From positions 1 through 31,501 of the IMG/VR virus record IMGVR_UViG_3300025326_000144: a DNA stretch of 31,501 nucleotides. One strand, 5' to 3'. Shown here piece after piece: positions 3,754 to 14,106 of the stretch. Position 1 is the stretch's first letter; each line of letters opens with the position of its first letter. The notes below the pieces were generated by a model. That model had not been told where the DNA came from, ran no database searches, and worked only from the letters and a program-made list of their open reading frames with translations. This stretch comes from a virus. The position numbers and the translations under genes are program-made.

Positions 3754-4128
3754 ATGACACAAGGGTTTAAATCTATAAAGGAAATAATGGACGACATGGT
3801 TACTGCTGGGAATCGAAATTATGCCCGGATGTCGGATAAAAATGAGTCTGGTATGGCGTGTGGTTTCTGCGGGCGTGATTTGGTAGAGGAGGTATTATCC
3901 TCCGACTTAGACGGGAACCGCCGTGAAATCGTCTGGTATTGCCCCAACAAGTGCGATAAAGAGGAGATGTGTGGCTATGATAGCACTGTACCCGCCACTG
4001 GCGAATGCTGGGCCTGTCATACACCGTTATGCGATACTTGTGGCCATAGGGATCCGGATGGCAATAAATACTGCCATTTTTGCTGGGAGGGTATTACCAC
4101 AGCTCTATCCGGAGAGGGAAAAGATTAA
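3754..4128 (+). CDS. Multi-zinc-ribbon protein, 124 aa
   Basis: Start chosen at 3754, nine bases after a consensus -10 box. An upstream in-frame GTG at 3736 overlaps the promoter and is rejected. Cysteine pairs lie at 36/39, 63/67, 85/88, 93/96 and 107/110, with a further cysteine at 73, enough for two or three zinc sites of ribbon or treble-clef type. The N-terminal 30 residues are polar and helical. No catalytic motif is visible. Likely an early nucleic-acid- or protein-binding factor. Confidence 0.75.
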   Translation: MTQGFKSIKEIMDDMVTAGNRNYARMSDKNESGMACGFCGRDLVEEVLSSDLDGNRREIVWYCPNKCDKEEMCGYDSTVPATGECWACHTPLCDTCGHRDPDGNKYCHFCWEGITTALSGEGKD

Positions 4129-4132
4129 GAAT

Positions 4133-4336
4133 ATGTTAAGAGTTGCCCTAGTCTATAAAAAGGATAAATACATACTCCGGGAATATAGGAATGGTGAAAG
4201 TACAAAAATCAGAGATAAATCCAGAGAGTATGGTGAATACGCCTTTTTGGAAGATGCCATTGAAGAATTATCTCGGATATATCCGGAGCAGGAAGAATTT
4301 ATATTTAAGATGGTCGGTTTTATAGATAAAAAATAA
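4133..4336 (+). CDS. Hypothetical protein, 67 aa
   Basis: I do not recognise this protein. It is a compact mixed alpha/beta sequence with an N-terminal strand-like stretch (MLRVALVYKKDKYILREY), an acidic helix (LEDAIEELSRIY) and a C-terminal strand. It starts 4 bases after the previous stop and ends with a 1-base overlap with the next gene. The frame stays open upstream, but that part lies in the shadow of the zinc protein, so the ATG at 4133 is chosen. Confidence 0.6.
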   Translation: MLRVALVYKKDKYILREYRNGESTKIRDKSREYGEYAFLEDAIEELSRIYPEQEEFIFKMVGFIDKK

Positions 4337-4500
4337 TGACAATCAAAGATGCCAAACAGTATATAAGTTTCGGTATTAAGGAGGGTTACTATTCACCAGA
4401 GGATTTTGATGGCTGGTCTGATGAAAAGTTGGTTGAGTTTGCGCAACGGGAATCTGACAGGGGTGATGCCTACGAACCGGAGGATGAGCATGAAGGTTAA
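4336..4500 (+). CDS. Small acidic protein, 54 aa
   Basis: The start codon shares one base with the previous stop (TAATG). The composition is acidic (SPEDFDGWSDEKLVEFAQRE, then EPEDEHEG). It overlaps the next gene by 11 bases, and that gene's ribosome-binding site lies inside it. No family recognised. It is supported by its place in an unbroken chain of overlapping genes. Confidence 0.5.
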   Translation: MTIKDAKQYISFGIKEGYYSPEDFDGWSDEKLVEFAQRESDRGDAYEPEDEHEG

Positions 4501-4768
4501 ACAGATTACCTTGGGTAAAGATTTCAAGGTTGGCCTACCCTCATTCTCAAATTTGACTTTAACCTGTCACATGACCTTTGAATTGGGAGAAAATGAGGAG
4601 CTGGAATGGGACAAAATGTGGGATACTATCAATTACCAGATGTATATTCAATCGTCAGGTATAGACCAGAGCTGGATTATAAGTAAAGAATATAAAAACT
4701 TTTTCAGGACTGTAGTCAAATCGGTTAAAACTGGGGAATTAAAATATAATGAAAAAAAGCAGGAATGA
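4490..4768 (+). CDS. Hypothetical protein, 92 aa
   Basis: Start chosen at ATG 4490 because GGAGG at 4479-4483 lies six bases upstream. Another in-frame ATG is at 4484. The N-terminal half has alternating hydrophobic residues (FSNLTLTCHMTFELG), suggesting a small beta sheet, followed by a helix. Layout is reminiscent of small phage beta-sheet proteins near recombination genes, but no family is claimed. Confidence 0.6.
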   Translation: MKVKQITLGKDFKVGLPSFSNLTLTCHMTFELGENEELEWDKMWDTINYQMYIQSSGIDQSWIISKEYKNFFRTVVKSVKTGELKYNEKKQE

Positions 4769-4902
4769 AAACAATCGGCCCCTTCAACTATCGCAAAATC
4801 CGCCTCTGGCTTCGGAATAATGATTGCCTGATTTGGCTGACTATAATTATTTTGATTTTCATAATTAGTGAATCATTAAGATTTGCAGAGGGGGTGAGAT
4901 AA
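4765..4902 (+). CDS. Small single-helix membrane protein, 45 aa
   Basis: The start overlaps the previous stop as ATGA. One strong hydrophobic segment (LIWLTIIILIFIIS, about residues 23-36) follows a basic N-terminus with R and K, so the N-terminus is probably cytoplasmic. Function unknown. Early small membrane proteins of phages are often host-takeover or exclusion factors, but nothing here shows that. Confidence 0.55.
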   Translation: MKTIGPFNYRKIRLWLRNNDCLIWLTIIILIFIISESLRFAEGVR

Positions 4903-4905
4903 AAA

Positions 4906-5217
4906 GTGGGTAAACTAGCTGAATTAGCCAAAAAAATGTCAACATTCCTGAAAGTCCTTCCCGGTGAGGAAGAACAAGTGGTATATGTCGGCTTTAAAGA
5001 TATCCCAAATAAGTTCGACCCTGAAAAAACAACCATCCAGTACGTTTTTATGGTTGGTGGTGAAAAAAAGTTCTGGGAGAACGGTTCACCAAAAGTGGCT
5101 TTGTTTTTTGATGACAAGAATGAGGGGGATATAATCTCCATCAAGAATGTCGGAGATGAAAAGAAAGCTAAGTATGAATTGGCTCCTGTTATCACACAGG
5201 AAAAAGCCAAGAAGTAA
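4906..5217 (+). CDS. Hypothetical protein, 103 aa, possible beta-barrel fold
   Basis: GTG start with a GAGGGGGTGAG ribosome-binding region upstream. After a short N-terminal helix, several strand-like segments alternate with turns (EQVVYVGFKDIP, TIQYVFMVGG, KVALFFDD, DIISIKNVG), which would fit an OB-fold or similar small barrel. It lies three genes downstream of zinc and replication-type genes, so single-strand DNA binding is a reasonable but unproven guess. The gene is followed by the regulatory stretch at 5218-5360. Confidence 0.6.
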   Translation: MGKLAELAKKMSTFLKVLPGEEEQVVYVGFKDIPNKFDPEKTTIQYVFMVGGEKKFWENGSPKVALFFDDKNEGDIISIKNVGDEKKAKYELAPVITQEKAKK

Positions 5218-5246
5218 AAACAGGACTGCGGTAGCGGATTTTTCCC

Positions 5247-5264
5247 GGAGCAAAGGCTCCACTT
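5247..5264 (+). terminator. Terminator-like hairpin
   Basis: GGAGC at 5247-5251, loop AAAG, GCTCC at 5256-5260, then ACTTTT. A short five-pair stem with a weak T-tract placed 30 bases after a stop codon. Modest support. Confidence 0.45.
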
Positions 5265-5277
5265 TTACAAGTTAACG

Positions 5278-5288
5278 GATACCGTATC
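5278..5288. promoter_or_regulatory. Short dyad, operator candidate
   Basis: GATAC, one base, GTATC forms a perfect 11-base dyad between two hairpins and about 35 bases before the -35 element of the next gene. A repressor or activator site is possible. No second copy was noticed. Confidence 0.3.
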
Positions 5289-5298
5289 GTGGTTGAAA

Positions 5299-5320
5299 GC
5301 CCCGGGCTAAAATCCGGGGC
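5299..5320 (+). terminator. Strong GC hairpin without a T-tract
   Basis: GCCCCGG at 5299-5305 pairs with CCGGGGC at 5314-5320 around an eight-base loop. No run of T follows, so this may be a transcript-end stabiliser, a leader structure or a protein-binding hairpin rather than a classical terminator. Confidence 0.5.
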
Positions 5321-5322
5321 AA

Positions 5323-5351
5323 TTGAAATTTAAAGTTAAATAGTGTATAAA
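5323..5351 (+). promoter_or_regulatory. Promoter for a leaderless gene
   Basis: TTGAAA at 5323-5328, 17-base spacer, TATAAA at 5346-5351 preceded by AGTG as at 3739 and 6547, then nine bases to the ATG at 5361. Spacing to the start codon equals that of the other two promoters. A second TATAAT at 5354-5359 lies too close to the ATG to be the main -10. Confidence 0.65.
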
Positions 5352-5360
5352 AATATAATA

Positions 5361-5891
5361 ATGGATCAGGAAGAATCAGACATATTCCGGAAACTGGCAG
5401 ACCCCCATTTCCCGATAGATGAGTTACCTTGGGATGTAAAGGTGGCCGCCCTGTCGAAACTGGTGGAAGCCCGGGAAACTTACCAGAAAGTAGTGGCCCG
5501 GCTGGCGGCATCCTTGCCTGATGATAAGCCAGGTATGGGATCTAAAAAGCATATACATAAACTTGCAGCTGCCATAGAGGACGCAACTGGACGGAAGATG
5601 TCGGTAAATACCCTGCATAAATACCGCCAGGTTTACAGGGCAGTGGCAGCATTTCAGGAAAAGATACCTTTGGATTGGCCCTTCCGGGCGTGGGTTTACT
5701 TGTCACGGGAGGATGAGCCAGGGGTTTGGATAGATAGGGCTGTGGCCGAAGGATGGAGTGGAGCGGAACTGGTTAGGGAGTTGAGGATATCAAATCCCCC
5801 AGAAAAAAGGCTGAAGATTTGCCGGCGTTGCGGTAGTGTCCAGCCGGATCCGGTAACCTGCCTCTCTTGCGGTCAACCCCTGAATTTTTAA
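5361..5891 (+). CDS. Putative DNA-binding protein with C-terminal zinc ribbon, 176 aa
   Basis: Start chosen at ATG 5361 from promoter spacing. An upstream in-frame GTG at 5343 lies inside the promoter. The body is mostly helical. Residues about 60-95 (AAAIEDATGRKMSVNTLHKY) resemble a helix-turn-helix. The C-terminus carries a clear zinc ribbon with C154, C157, C167 and C170 (CRRC ... CLSC). It is followed one base later by a resolvase-like nuclease. A regulator or replication/recombination accessory role fits. No named family recognised. Confidence 0.65.
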   Translation: MDQEESDIFRKLADPHFPIDELPWDVKVAALSKLVEARETYQKVVARLAASLPDDKPGMGSKKHIHKLAAAIEDATGRKMSVNTLHKYRQVYRAVAAFQEKIPLDWPFRAWVYLSREDEPGVWIDRAVAEGWSGAELVRELRISNPPEKRLKICRRCGSVQPDPVTCLSCGQPLNF

Positions 5892-5892
5892 G

Positions 5893-6237
5893 ATGATTAA
5901 ACACGCTAAAGCTAAGGGTTCGTTATGGGAGCGGGATTTTGCCAAGTTCCTGCGGGATAGTGGTATAGAGAAATATGCCCAGCGTCAGCCATTGTCGGGG
6001 GCTGTCAGTATGTTGCCGGGGGATATCCATTCGAGGATGTTTACGTATGAGTGCAAGAGCTACAGCAAGTTTGCAGGTATGAAGATAATAGATCAAGCCA
6101 AAAGGGCTGCCACTGCCACTAGGCCGCCTGTGGTTGCACTGAAAACTAACAATCACAAGCCGATCATCATAATGGAAATAGACGACTGGGGGGAAGTCAT
6201 GGCATTTGCTCTAAAAGGTGGCTATGGCAATAGATAA
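5893..6237 (+). CDS. PD-(D/E)XK nuclease, Holliday-junction-resolvase-like
   Basis: This 114-residue protein has the spaced acidic motif of small resolvase-type nucleases: G9-S-x-x-E13-R14 near the N-terminus, G36, then G43-D44 and E53-C-K55 (YECKS). This order (E, D, ExK) matches archaeal Hjc-type and phage VRR/RecU-like endonucleases. A likely role is resolving branched DNA before packaging, or recombination. It overlaps the next gene by 14 bases. Which subfamily it belongs to cannot be told by eye. Confidence 0.8.
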   Translation: MIKHAKAKGSLWERDFAKFLRDSGIEKYAQRQPLSGAVSMLPGDIHSRMFTYECKSYSKFAGMKIIDQAKRAATATRPPVVALKTNNHKPIIIMEIDDWGEVMAFALKGGYGNR

Positions 6238-7370: not shown

Positions 7371-7423
7371 TTTTTTGTGGTCGGTTTCCCTTCGGGAGAA
7401 CTGGAAGCCGATCAGGAAAAAAT

Positions 7424-7747
7424 ATGAAAAAGAATAATCTGATTCAAATTGATTTTGACGGTGTGATACATGATGCCCTACTGGGTAATATTAACGGTCA
7501 AATATATGGCAATGCTGTTGACGGAGCAAGACGGACAATCGCCAATCTATTAAAAGCTGGTTATGAAATTGAGATATTAACATCAAGATCTCCTGAAGAA
7601 TGGGCTATGGTAGTTGACTGGCTGACTGAAAAAGATTTCCCCTCAGATTTGCGGGTTACCAACATCAAAAAACCAGCTCTTGCATACATAGATGACAGAG
7701 CAATTAGGTTTATCAGTTGGGCAGATGTCGCCCACTATTTCCTATGA
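7424..7747 (+). CDS. HAD-superfamily phosphatase-like protein
   Basis: This 107-residue protein carries the HAD signatures: motif I IDFDGVI with D10 and D12, motif II T53-S54 (LTSRS), a lysine near 82-83 for motif III, and motif IV IDDRA with D90 and D91. All four are present although the protein is short, so it is a minimal HAD fold without a large cap. Start chosen at ATG 7424, with AGGA upstream; a longer frame runs into the previous gene. It overlaps the kinase-like gene by four bases (ATGA). A small phosphoester or nucleotide is the likely substrate. Confidence 0.85.
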   Translation: MKKNNLIQIDFDGVIHDALLGNINGQIYGNAVDGARRTIANLLKAGYEIEILTSRSPEEWAMVVDWLTEKDFPSDLRVTNIKKPALAYIDDRAIRFISWADVAHYFL

Positions 7748-8472
7748 GTTTCATTCTAAAAGAAAAACTAATATCACAGGGAATTCAGTCAGAGATCGAG
7801 ATCGGAGAATGGGACGGTAAACCGGCAATCCGCAAGATCAGTGGTAAGGGACTAAACAAGAGAGAACTGGATACCGTAGCCAATGCAGTTAATCCGTATC
7901 GGGATAATTTGCAAAGAGTGGGGGTCGATGTCCCCCGGAATCACCAAGTAAGTCGGGTGAATGGAACAGTAGAAACGATTGACGAGTTTATATCGGGTGA
8001 ACTGGTATATGACAGTGCAAAACATGGAAGTTTGTCGGGCTGGTACAAAATGCTTCACTCAGTGTTGTGCGCTGACGGTGGCCAGACATTTGTGGATGCA
8101 AAACCTCAAAACTACATAGAGAACAATGGCAAAGCGATATATATAGATACGTTCCCGCCTATGTTGCGTCACCATGACGACATCAGCCCCTGGATTCAGG
8201 CACTATATAAACGTGATCGGAAGATGATGGCTTTTAATTTTGGTGATATCCGGGGACAGACTACAAAAATGTTATCCCTGGCAAAAAGAGAAAACCCGCA
8301 ATATTATCAGGAAATAGCGATAAAAACCTTGGAGTTTCTGAATGGCAAGATTCCCCAAAGTGATTGGCTTTACATTTGTGAGCAAGTTGAACGTGGATTT
8401 CCTGATATGAACGAAATGTATGCAAATCCTGATAATGCTAAAAAGGTTGTCTATCGTATAAAAACTAAATGA
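7744..8472 (+). CDS. APH/protein-kinase-like phosphotransferase, 242 aa
   Basis: The motif FVDAKPQNY (D118, K120, N123) followed 12 residues later by YIDTFPPM (D135) matches the catalytic loop (HxDxxxxN, with F for H) and metal-binding D of the aminoglycoside-phosphotransferase/kinase-like fold. K26 and K31 (GKPAIRKIS) could be the N-lobe nucleotide-binding lysine. It starts and ends in four-base overlaps with the HAD and HIT genes, so the three are made together. A kinase acting on a small molecule, nucleoside or RNA end would fit. The exact substrate is unknown. Confidence 0.65.
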   Translation: MSFILKEKLISQGIQSEIEIGEWDGKPAIRKISGKGLNKRELDTVANAVNPYRDNLQRVGVDVPRNHQVSRVNGTVETIDEFISGELVYDSAKHGSLSGWYKMLHSVLCADGGQTFVDAKPQNYIENNGKAIYIDTFPPMLRHHDDISPWIQALYKRDRKMMAFNFGDIRGQTTKMLSLAKRENPQYYQEIAIKTLEFLNGKIPQSDWLYICEQVERGFPDMNEMYANPDNAKKVVYRIKTK

Positions 8473-8954
8473 AAACAGATCAATTGAAAATGCTGTCCCG
8501 GAAGCAATACGAGGAATGGCTAAAATCATTTCCCCCTGACTATTGTTCATTCTGTGATTGGCCTCATAACCAAATAACCTTGCATGAGGGTAAGAACTGG
8601 ATTTGGATTGCCAACCGTAGTCCATACTGGTATTGGCATACCATGCTGGTTACTAAACGCCATGTCCGGGAATTTGACCAATTATCTGTAATAGAGGCTG
8701 GGGAACTGGTGGAAATGTACGGGTATATTGTTAAAAAATACCGGGAAGCCGAATTAAAAAGATCGGACAATAGCCTGATTAAAAAATACGTTTTCTTCTG
8801 GCGACTCCGGGATGATCTGTACGATCCTATATCCGGCAATATGCGACCTGACCATTTCCATATCCATATTGCACCGGATAAAGACCATCTTTGGGATCCA
8901 TTATTGGAAAAGGACGCTTATTTACAGGATGTAGTTGGTAAACTAGGCAAATGA
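8469..8954 (+). CDS. HIT-family (histidine triad) protein
   Basis: This 161-residue protein has the HIT signature HFHIHIA (H129, H131, H133) near the C-terminus, plus the typical upstream segment with a proline/aromatic loop and HTMLVTKRHVREF. C26/C29 (CSFC) with H65 may bind zinc, as in many HIT proteins. HIT enzymes hydrolyse or transfer nucleoside phosphates (AMP-lysine, Ap4A, GalT-like uridylyl transfer). It overlaps the kinase-like gene by four bases and is followed by a very short membrane peptide gene. It belongs to the HAD/kinase/HIT cassette. Confidence 0.85.
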   Translation: MKTDQLKMLSRKQYEEWLKSFPPDYCSFCDWPHNQITLHEGKNWIWIANRSPYWYWHTMLVTKRHVREFDQLSVIEAGELVEMYGYIVKKYREAELKRSDNSLIKKYVFFWRLRDDLYDPISGNMRPDHFHIHIAPDKDHLWDPLLEKDAYLQDVVGKLGK

Positions 8955-9022
8955 ACGAAATTGTATTTGCTGTTCTAATGGGTGCAGTACTAATACTGGT
9001 TTTTATTTATATATCACGATGA
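8951..9022 (+). CDS. Very small membrane peptide, 23 aa
   Basis: The start overlaps the HIT stop as ATGA, and its own stop overlaps the next start the same way. The product is almost entirely one hydrophobic helix (EIVFAVLMGAVLILVFIYI). The two-sided overlaps argue that it is translated, at least for coupling. No function is known. Confidence 0.45.
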   Translation: MNEIVFAVLMGAVLILVFIYISR

Positions 9023-12637: not shown

Positions 12638-12748
12638 GGTTCCCGCAAGGGTGATGGAGGTTGGGAACCCATACCACAACGGGTTCGATTCCCGTCGGCC
12701 CCTCCACATGGGGCCGATAGCGGTATTAGTGCAGAGGGTTCCAATCTT
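12638..12748 (+). ncRNA. Permuted tRNA-like (tmRNA-like) RNA core
   Basis: A T-arm is present at 12679-12695 (ACGGG, loop TTCGATT, CCCGT). It is followed directly by CGGCCCC, T and CCA (12696-12706), as in the 3' end of a tRNA. Three bases later GGGGCCG (12710-12716) complements CGGCCCC exactly and is followed by a D-like segment containing GG. GGGTTCC-AATCTT (12736-12748) pairs with 12657-12670 (13 pairs including wobbles, one bulge), closing the junction where an anticodon stem or tmRNA helix P2 would be. The order is thus 3' half, then 5' half, as in permuted tRNA or two-piece tmRNA genes. Against tmRNA: no GGnTTCGAC D-loop and no standard tag was found. Another reading is a tRNA 3' end used as an attachment site. 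Confidence 0.45.
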
Positions 12749-12909: not shown

Positions 12910-14106
12910 ATGGCAGACATATTTTGGGACATATCAAAACTTCACGAATGGGACAAAAACCCCCGATCTATTTCAAAGGATGGATTTGAACGGCTAAAGA
13001 AACAAATTAAGAAGCTCGGCCAGTACAAACCGTTGTTGATAACCACTGACGGGACGGTACTGGGTGGCAATATGCGGCTTCGGGCATATAAAGAACTGGG
13101 TGTGGATAAAGTGTGGGTAAGTATCATCAATCCCAAAACCGAGAATGAAAAACTGGAATATTCGCTTAGCGACAATGACCGTGCAGGATATTATGATGAC
13201 GATCTGTTAACTAATCTCTCCCCTTATTACCCGGACTTCAATTGGAGTGACTATGCGGTAGACCTGAAAGAACCGACAAACCTAGATGAATTACTGGATC
13301 AGTTCAAAGAGGTGGTGGAAGATGAAGTACCGGAAGTATCCGACGAACCGGCGATATCAAAGCTGGGTGAGGTTTATCAACTAGGCAGACATAGGTTGAT
13401 GTGTGGGGATAGTACGAAGATAGAGGACGTTGAGAAGTTAATGGATGGGAAGAAGGCTGACATGGTGTTTACTGATCCTCCGTATGGGATGAATTTAAAC
13501 ACTAAAAATTCGGCTAGAAAAACTACCAGCGCCTTTGCTAAAGCAAAAGGTGTAAGTTCTGGCAGAGATTACGATGCTGTTATAGGAGATGATAAGGAAT
13601 ATGACCCGATACACTTATTTAAAATGTTTCCTGATGTAAAAGAAATGTTTTTATGGGGTGGGGATTACTACTCTGATTTAATTCCCAACAAAAAAGATAG
13701 TTCATGGTTTGTGTGGGACAAAAGAATAGAGGAAAACTTTGATAACATGATTGGTAGCAGTTTTGAAATGTGCTGGAGTAAGCAAAAACATAAGAGGGAA
13801 ATAATTAGAATAAGGTGGGTATTTATATTTGGGACAGAAAAGGAATTTGATAAGAAACGTCACCATCCAACACAGAAACCTATTGAACTTTCCGTGTGGT
13901 TCATAAACAAATTCAGTAAAGAAAACAATTTGATTATTGACCTCTTTGGTGGTTCAGGCTCTACCCTCATCGCTTGTGAACAAACTAACAGAATTTGTTA
14001 CATGATGGAATTAGACCCCAAATACTGCGATGTTATTAGAAAAAGATATGCAAATTTAATAGGGAAAGGAGACTCATGGCAGACGGAAACGCCAGTAATC
14101 CTGTAA
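12910..14106 (+). CDS. ParB-domain / DNA N6-adenine (or N4-cytosine) methyltransferase fusion
   Basis: Residues 1-95 form a ParB/Srx-like domain (GQYKPLLITTDGTVLGGN region and the R/A-rich helix after it). A linker and LGRHRLMCGDST (159-169) lead into a methyltransferase domain with DPPY at 189-192, then FGGSGST at 346-352. With the catalytic motif before the SAM motif, it belongs to the beta class. TQKP lies between them. No restriction enzyme lies nearby, so it is an orphan methyltransferase, plausibly protecting phage DNA or marking it for packaging. Its last 31 bases overlap the small-terminase candidate. 398 aa is a normal length for this fusion. Confidence 0.9.
   Translation: MADIFWDISKLHEWDKNPRSISKDGFERLKKQIKKLGQYKPLLITTDGTVLGGNMRLRAYKELGVDKVWVSIINPKTENEKLEYSLSDNDRAGYYDDDLLTNLSPYYPDFNWSDYAVDLKEPTNLDELLDQFKEVVEDEVPEVSDEPAISKLGEVYQLGRHRLMCGDSTKIEDVEKLMDGKKADMVFTDPPYGMNLNTKNSARKTTSAFAKAKGVSSGRDYDAVIGDDKEYDPIHLFKMFPDVKEMFLWGGDYYSDLIPNKKDSSWFVWDKRIEENFDNMIGSSFEMCWSKQKHKREIIRIRWVFIFGTEKEFDKKRHHPTQKPIELSVWFINKFSKENNLIIDLFGGSGSTLIACEQTNRICYMMELDPKYCDVIRKRYANLIGKGDSWQTETPVIL

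Follow-up and report, generated by a model that had tools for sequence, protein, structure and literature searches.

What would a phage do with a HAD phosphatase, a kinase-like protein, and a HIT-superfamily protein encoded back to back? The question is raised by the IMG/VR virus record IMGVR_UViG_3300025326_000144, which was analyzed as one stretch of 31,501 nucleotides (positions 1 to 31,501), here called the window. On its plus strand, ORF1 (7424-7747) encodes a protein of 107 aa which is, by its motifs, a cap-less HAD phosphatase, ORF2 (7744-8472) encodes the kinase-like protein of 242 aa, with K31, D118-A-K-P-Q-N123, and D135, and ORF3 (8469-8954) encodes the HIT-superfamily protein of 161 aa, with C26xxC29, H65, and H129-x-H131-x-H133. 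The original prediction described three genes linked by four-base overlaps and carrying HAD motifs, D-x4-N with a second Asp, and HFHIHIA, respectively, and all of these features are found at the three ORFs, which are joined by ATGA overlaps across 7424-8954.

Gene architecture and recurrence of the trio

Since the operon carries the same overlaps past the HIT gene, we discarded them as evidence for the trio. A further ATGA overlap leads to an ORF encoding a hydrophobic peptide of 23 aa (MNEIVFAVLMGAVLILVFIYISR; 8951-9022, plus strand, predicted membrane), which is ATGA-coupled on both sides and is followed by an ORF of 58 aa. The cassette is defined by its conservation across phages, not by the overlaps. 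The gene located 3' of the HIT gene differs in two of the related loci described below (L002 and L004), and the 23-aa ORF, which is not conserved with the trio, probably lies outside it.

In the gap which separates the HAD start from the stop codon before it, a strong RNA hairpin (7371-7421, plus strand; minimum free energy of -25.7 kcal/mol, z of -4.9) pairs the presumed ribosome-binding site (AGGA). It ranks second in stability on the plus strand of the window, where the most stable predicted RNA structure lies around 12661-12730, and an Rfam search returned no match for it. A different strong hairpin (z of -3.8) precedes the HAD gene in L004, and none was detected before that of L002, L003, L056, or L008. 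The hairpin of the window possibly serves translational control or acts as a terminator for the other strand; simple promoter and terminator scans were uninformative. The surroundings of the cassette are early or accessory genes, with genes for DNA methylase, HNH, and nuclease proteins close by.

Three relatives of the HIT protein found in IMG/VR led to the contigs L002, L003, and L004, each with a trio of divergent proteins, while L008/L009 was added by a profile scan and L056 by a scan with the HAD profile. Counting the window, and taking L008/L009 as one, these IMG/VR loci amount to six distinct records. The gene order of the window is kept in L002 (HAD at 886, kinase at 1194, HIT at 1894) and in L004 (HAD, kinase at 5297, HIT at 6001), so that HAD, kinase, and HIT genes are contiguous in three genomes. 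In L003, and again in L056, HAD and HIT genes of the window type flank a gene encoding a ParB-CE protein unrelated to the kinase. In L008/L009, the kinase gene is followed by an HTH gene and small ORFs and then by genes for a different putative HAD, called from its motifs only (DIDG, ISGR, and HEDE, with no Pfam or PHROG match), and for the HIT protein. A middle gene and a HAD-type gene near the HIT gene were found in all six records with the trio HIT subfamily. A wider HIT scan returned the trio loci again together with ordinary stand-alone phage HITs; the latter (L100 to L113) come without the trio, among the matches listed. In L111, at about 4040-5378, a trio-type HAD gene lies about 0.5 kb upstream of the ordinary HIT gene, without a middle gene.

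Because independent phages show the same motifs and order of genes, at 30 to 72% protein identity and with the differences between cassette versions falling mostly at third codon positions, the trio is not a chance arrangement. Nor is it confined to one phage lineage, since the terminase of the window has its sole match in L008/L009, at only 31%. Searches of INPHARED by tblastn with the middle protein, the HITs of the window, L002, and L008, and the ParB-CE protein gave no match, and neither did a single-sequence scan of IMG/VR with the middle protein. The original prediction left it to a neighborhood survey to decide whether the trio is restricted to this phage, and the survey shows that it recurs in at least five other divergent phage records.

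Predicted properties of the three proteins

The middle protein carries the motifs AIxK, DAKPQN, and YID, of which K31, D118, N123, and D135 are invariant in the four phages aligned; the kinase of L008 features DAMPGN, with Met replacing the Lys of the catalytic loop. Against Pfam, ORF2 matches DUF6206 (PF19709) with 22.4 bits, below the gathering score of 30.4 and over the catalytic-loop segment only. A profile built from the four sequences retrieved the protein kinase TTK (E of 0.015), the two being collinear at AIK, DxKPxN, and the DFG-type Asp. A first AlphaFold model, made from the four sequences, was of low confidence (pLDDT of 52), while a second one, for which DUF6206 relatives were added to the alignment, reached a pLDDT of 82.6 and a pTM of 0.80. 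The best structural matches of the second model, over 175 to 191 residues, are the KEOPS kinases Bud32/PRPK (Z of 12.1 to 13.9), followed by APH(3')-IIIa (11.5) and RIO1 (11.4); ordinary protein kinases score less than 10. The ORFs annotated around the trio include no evident gene for Kae1 or Cgi121, the partners of Bud32. According to this model, the middle protein is predicted to have a protein-kinase-like (PKL) two-lobe fold with the Lys, D-x4-N, and Asp in place; the structure prediction proposed to decide whether it is a kinase at all thus came out in favor of the kinase fold. The phage protein shares this compact fold and these residues with Bud32/PRPK, RIO1, and APH(3'), although at 9 to 16% identity, and the residues FNxxDxRG and PDM of its C-terminal substrate lobe are present in the phage family only.

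The bacterial DUF6206 proteins, the only ones returned by a genome-contig scan, are homologous to the phage kinase over 195 columns (HHalign probability of 96.6, by profile-profile comparison only), and the two have an N...(Y/F)xDTFPPML segment in common. In DUF6206 proteins, however, a His (HPTLRN) stands at the position of the catalytic Asp of the phage proteins. L012, L013, and L014 are such kinase-fold relatives with HPTLRN, and they may be inactive or operate by a different mechanism. In the phylum sampled, DUF6206 is seldom found, our literature search found no description of it, and in the three loci examined no HAD or HIT gene adjoins it, the neighbors being uninformative.

As the fold similarity of the middle protein reaches true protein kinases, it could be a regulatory kinase which phosphorylates host or phage proteins, with the HAD and HIT proteins as independent accessories travelling along. 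We deem this very unlikely: in five genomes, the middle gene has the same HAD and HIT genes on its two sides, in two of these it encodes a non-homologous protein, and the compact architecture of the kinase is of Bud32/APH type.

ORF1 harbors the motifs IDFDGV, LTSR, a Lys, and YIDDR, and hence all the residues of the HAD superfamily, namely DxD (D10 and D12), T53/S54, Lys, and D90-D91, in motifs which are invariant in the orthologues. It represents a minimal form of PHROG 1238 (E of 5.6e-15), has weak PDB relatives in 1xpj and 9iqw, and weakly resembles the capsule phosphatases EcbF/BcbF. The HADs of L002 and L004 match PHROG 415, named polynucleotide kinase, at 2e-7. Among the 100 immediate neighbors of 80 related phage HADs, enzymes of sugar and nucleotide-sugar metabolism are frequent, and the neighbors include epimerases, cytidylyltransferases (CTP_transf_3), RmlD, APS kinase, HpcH/HpaI, and glycosyltransferases. 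In another phage (L028, 2641-3849), a gene for an RtcB-like RNA ligase adjoins the related HAD gene.

An unlikely reading of the trio is the repair or modification of RNA (tRNA) ends, in which the kinase would act on an RNA hydroxyl, the HAD protein would be a PNKP-like end phosphatase, and the HIT protein would remove AMP from abortive ligations in the manner of aprataxin. The closest folds of the kinase, those of the tRNA-linked Bud32 and of the RIO kinases, fit this reading, as do the PHROG 415 match, the RtcB-like neighbor of one HAD relative, and the presence, among the matches of the first, low-confidence model, of structure 7vnx, that of the tRNA 2'-kinase ArkI (PMC9095486). In addition, the phage of L008 (contig L122, 2148-4050) encodes T4-type RNA ligase 1 (Rnl1) and Pnkp (HAD_PNKP) 3.2 kb upstream of its kinase and so carries both T4-type Pnkp-Rnl1 and trio-type genes. 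However, a full Pnkp is already available to this phage, and RNA ligase (PF09414) and RtcB are absent from five of the six trio records, the window included, although the records may be incomplete. Kinase and HAD phosphatase chemistry is common to the trio and T4 Pnkp-Rnl1 tRNA repair, whereas T4 Pnkp is a P-loop kinase fused to the HAD domain and the trio comes without a ligase. Furthermore, the window contains no tRNA genes, and the HAD neighbors are mostly sugar-type genes.

The HIT protein (motifs CSFC, KRH, and HFHIHIA) matches the Pfam HIT model with 21.7 bits, barely over the cut-off of 21.5. Its C26xxC29, H65, and H129xH131xH133 are invariant in the alignment of six phages, a set which we take to be typical of zinc-containing HIT enzymes whose active site is intact, and the protein therefore likely carries the zinc-binding residues. 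Its best NCBIfam models are ATP adenylyltransferase (mycobacterial-type Ap4A phosphorylase; 17.8 to 26.3 bits against a cut-off of 290) and, after it, GalT with its C-terminal HIT (12.8 to 19.6 bits against cut-offs of 102 to 448), all far under the cut-offs. Among the PDB profile matches, HINT-type proteins are on top and chains of GalT and Ap4A phosphorylase also appear. HxHxH is usual in HIT hydrolases, whereas most HIT transferases have HxHxQ; a transferase of GalT type would show HxHxQ and tandem HIT halves, and the trio protein instead has HxHxH in a single domain of 161 aa.

Dinucleoside polyphosphate hydrolases belong to the HIT superfamily, which lends some plausibility to an anti-defense role: the HIT protein would cleave a nucleotide or dinucleotide signal of the host, the HAD protein would dephosphorylate the product, and the kinase would modify the product or an alternative signal. 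The mobility of the cassette among phages and the DNA methylase, HNH, and nuclease genes in its surroundings point the same way. Yet the trio gives no more than chance-level hits in PADLOC-DB, no defense or counter-defense neighbor is conserved, and simple degradation needs no kinase, and we regard this role as improbable.

Exchange of the middle gene

In L003 (2598-3143; 182 aa) and L056 (4352-4918), the slot between the HAD and HIT genes is occupied by the ParB-CE protein. This assignment reflects the Pfam name (1e-13 in L003 and 1.3e-14 in L056) and the DGLHR motif; neither protein matches the solved ParB or SerK chains. Both share a conserved C-terminal TSECLRxNYRDLSxLGSxGRR, and a ParB-CE profile scan returned these two loci only. 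In the window itself, 12910-14106 encodes an N6/N4 DNA methylase with a fused ParB-like N-terminal region.

The HIT of L002, a kinase-type locus, is 72% identical to that of L003, a ParB-CE-type locus, and is nearer to it than to the other kinase-type HITs. HITs so similar beside unrelated middle genes imply an exchange between two folds capable of phosphotransfer, the Bud32/APH-like kinase and the ParB-CE protein. In the HIT tree, L003 groups with the kinase-type phages and not with L056, with modest support (81/80), while in the HAD tree L003 and L056 group together at 98/96. The HAD gene thus seems to go with the middle gene, whereas both types share the HIT gene. The replacement is informative because the ParB fold includes the metabolite kinases SerK and SbnI and binds ATP, GTP, or CTP (PMC12704722). 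By analogy with these enzymes, the ParB-CE protein appears to take over the kinase step in L003 and L056.

A candidate small-molecule pathway

Our preferred reading, to which we assign a probability of about 0.4, is that the trio is a metabolic cassette portable among phages and that its products would work one after another on a single small phosphorylated compound, most likely sugar-like or nucleotide-like. Acting as a compact kinase of Bud32/RIO/APH type that uses ATP, the middle protein would add a phosphate, the HAD phosphatase would take off another one, and the zinc-type HIT enzyme would put a nucleotidyl group onto the product or take it off; in two phages, the ParB-CE protein would provide the kinase step. 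The single substrate for all three proteins, the order of the reactions, the substrate class, and the ParB-CE protein as an equivalent enzyme are the parts of this scheme that we infer.

Such chemistry is that of a route which activates or salvages a small molecule; it resembles the activation of heptose or hexosamine by a kinase, a HAD phosphatase, and a nucleotidyl transferase, and heptose activation and NahK/GalT salvage are presumably its nearest analogies. The first of these routes uses like enzyme types in sequence (the HddA/HldE kinase, the HAD phosphatase GmhB, and the nucleotidyltransferase HddC), while hexosamine salvage employs NahK, a kinase of APH fold, and GalT, which belongs to the HIT superfamily. 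The trio differs from both in the HxHxH of its HIT protein, in its minimal, cap-less HAD of 107 aa, and in the absence of adjoining sugar genes: no sugar-nucleotide or glycosyltransferase genes lie beside the trio, and GT2 (PF00535) and GT1 (PF13692) gave no match in the records of the window, L003, and L004 (three of the six, which may be fragments). The nucleotide-sugar-like route offered by the original prediction receives some support from the sugar-type neighborhoods of the related HADs and from the weak likenesses to EcbF/BcbF, 9iqw, and GalT or ATP adenylyltransferase. Against a sugar route stand the closest fold of the kinase, which is Bud32/PRPK and not a sugar kinase, the HIT protein with its HxHxH and HINT-type top PDB matches, and the HAD match to the PHROG named polynucleotide kinase. 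A more specific and rather doubtful proposal is a novel phage pathway which, during infection, makes or destroys a specific nucleotidyl-linked small molecule, with phosphotransfer interchangeable between two unrelated folds and the phosphatase and HIT proteins fixed.

We found no counterpart of the trio among described systems, either in the databases (Pfam, PHROGs, NCBIfam, PADLOC, and INPHARED) or in the literature searched, which covered the minor part of the subscription literature. While the enzyme superfamilies are known, neither their combination in the trio nor the swapping of the middle gene seems to have been described. If our preferred reading is true, the accessory repertoire of phages gains a small, mobile module of metabolism, and there should be a small molecule which phages time and again phosphorylate and nucleotidylate, or clear. 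The swap between the kinase and the ParB fold can be used to test directly if ParB-CE proteins are nucleotide-using enzymes, and all three proteins of the trio are small enough for straightforward biochemistry.
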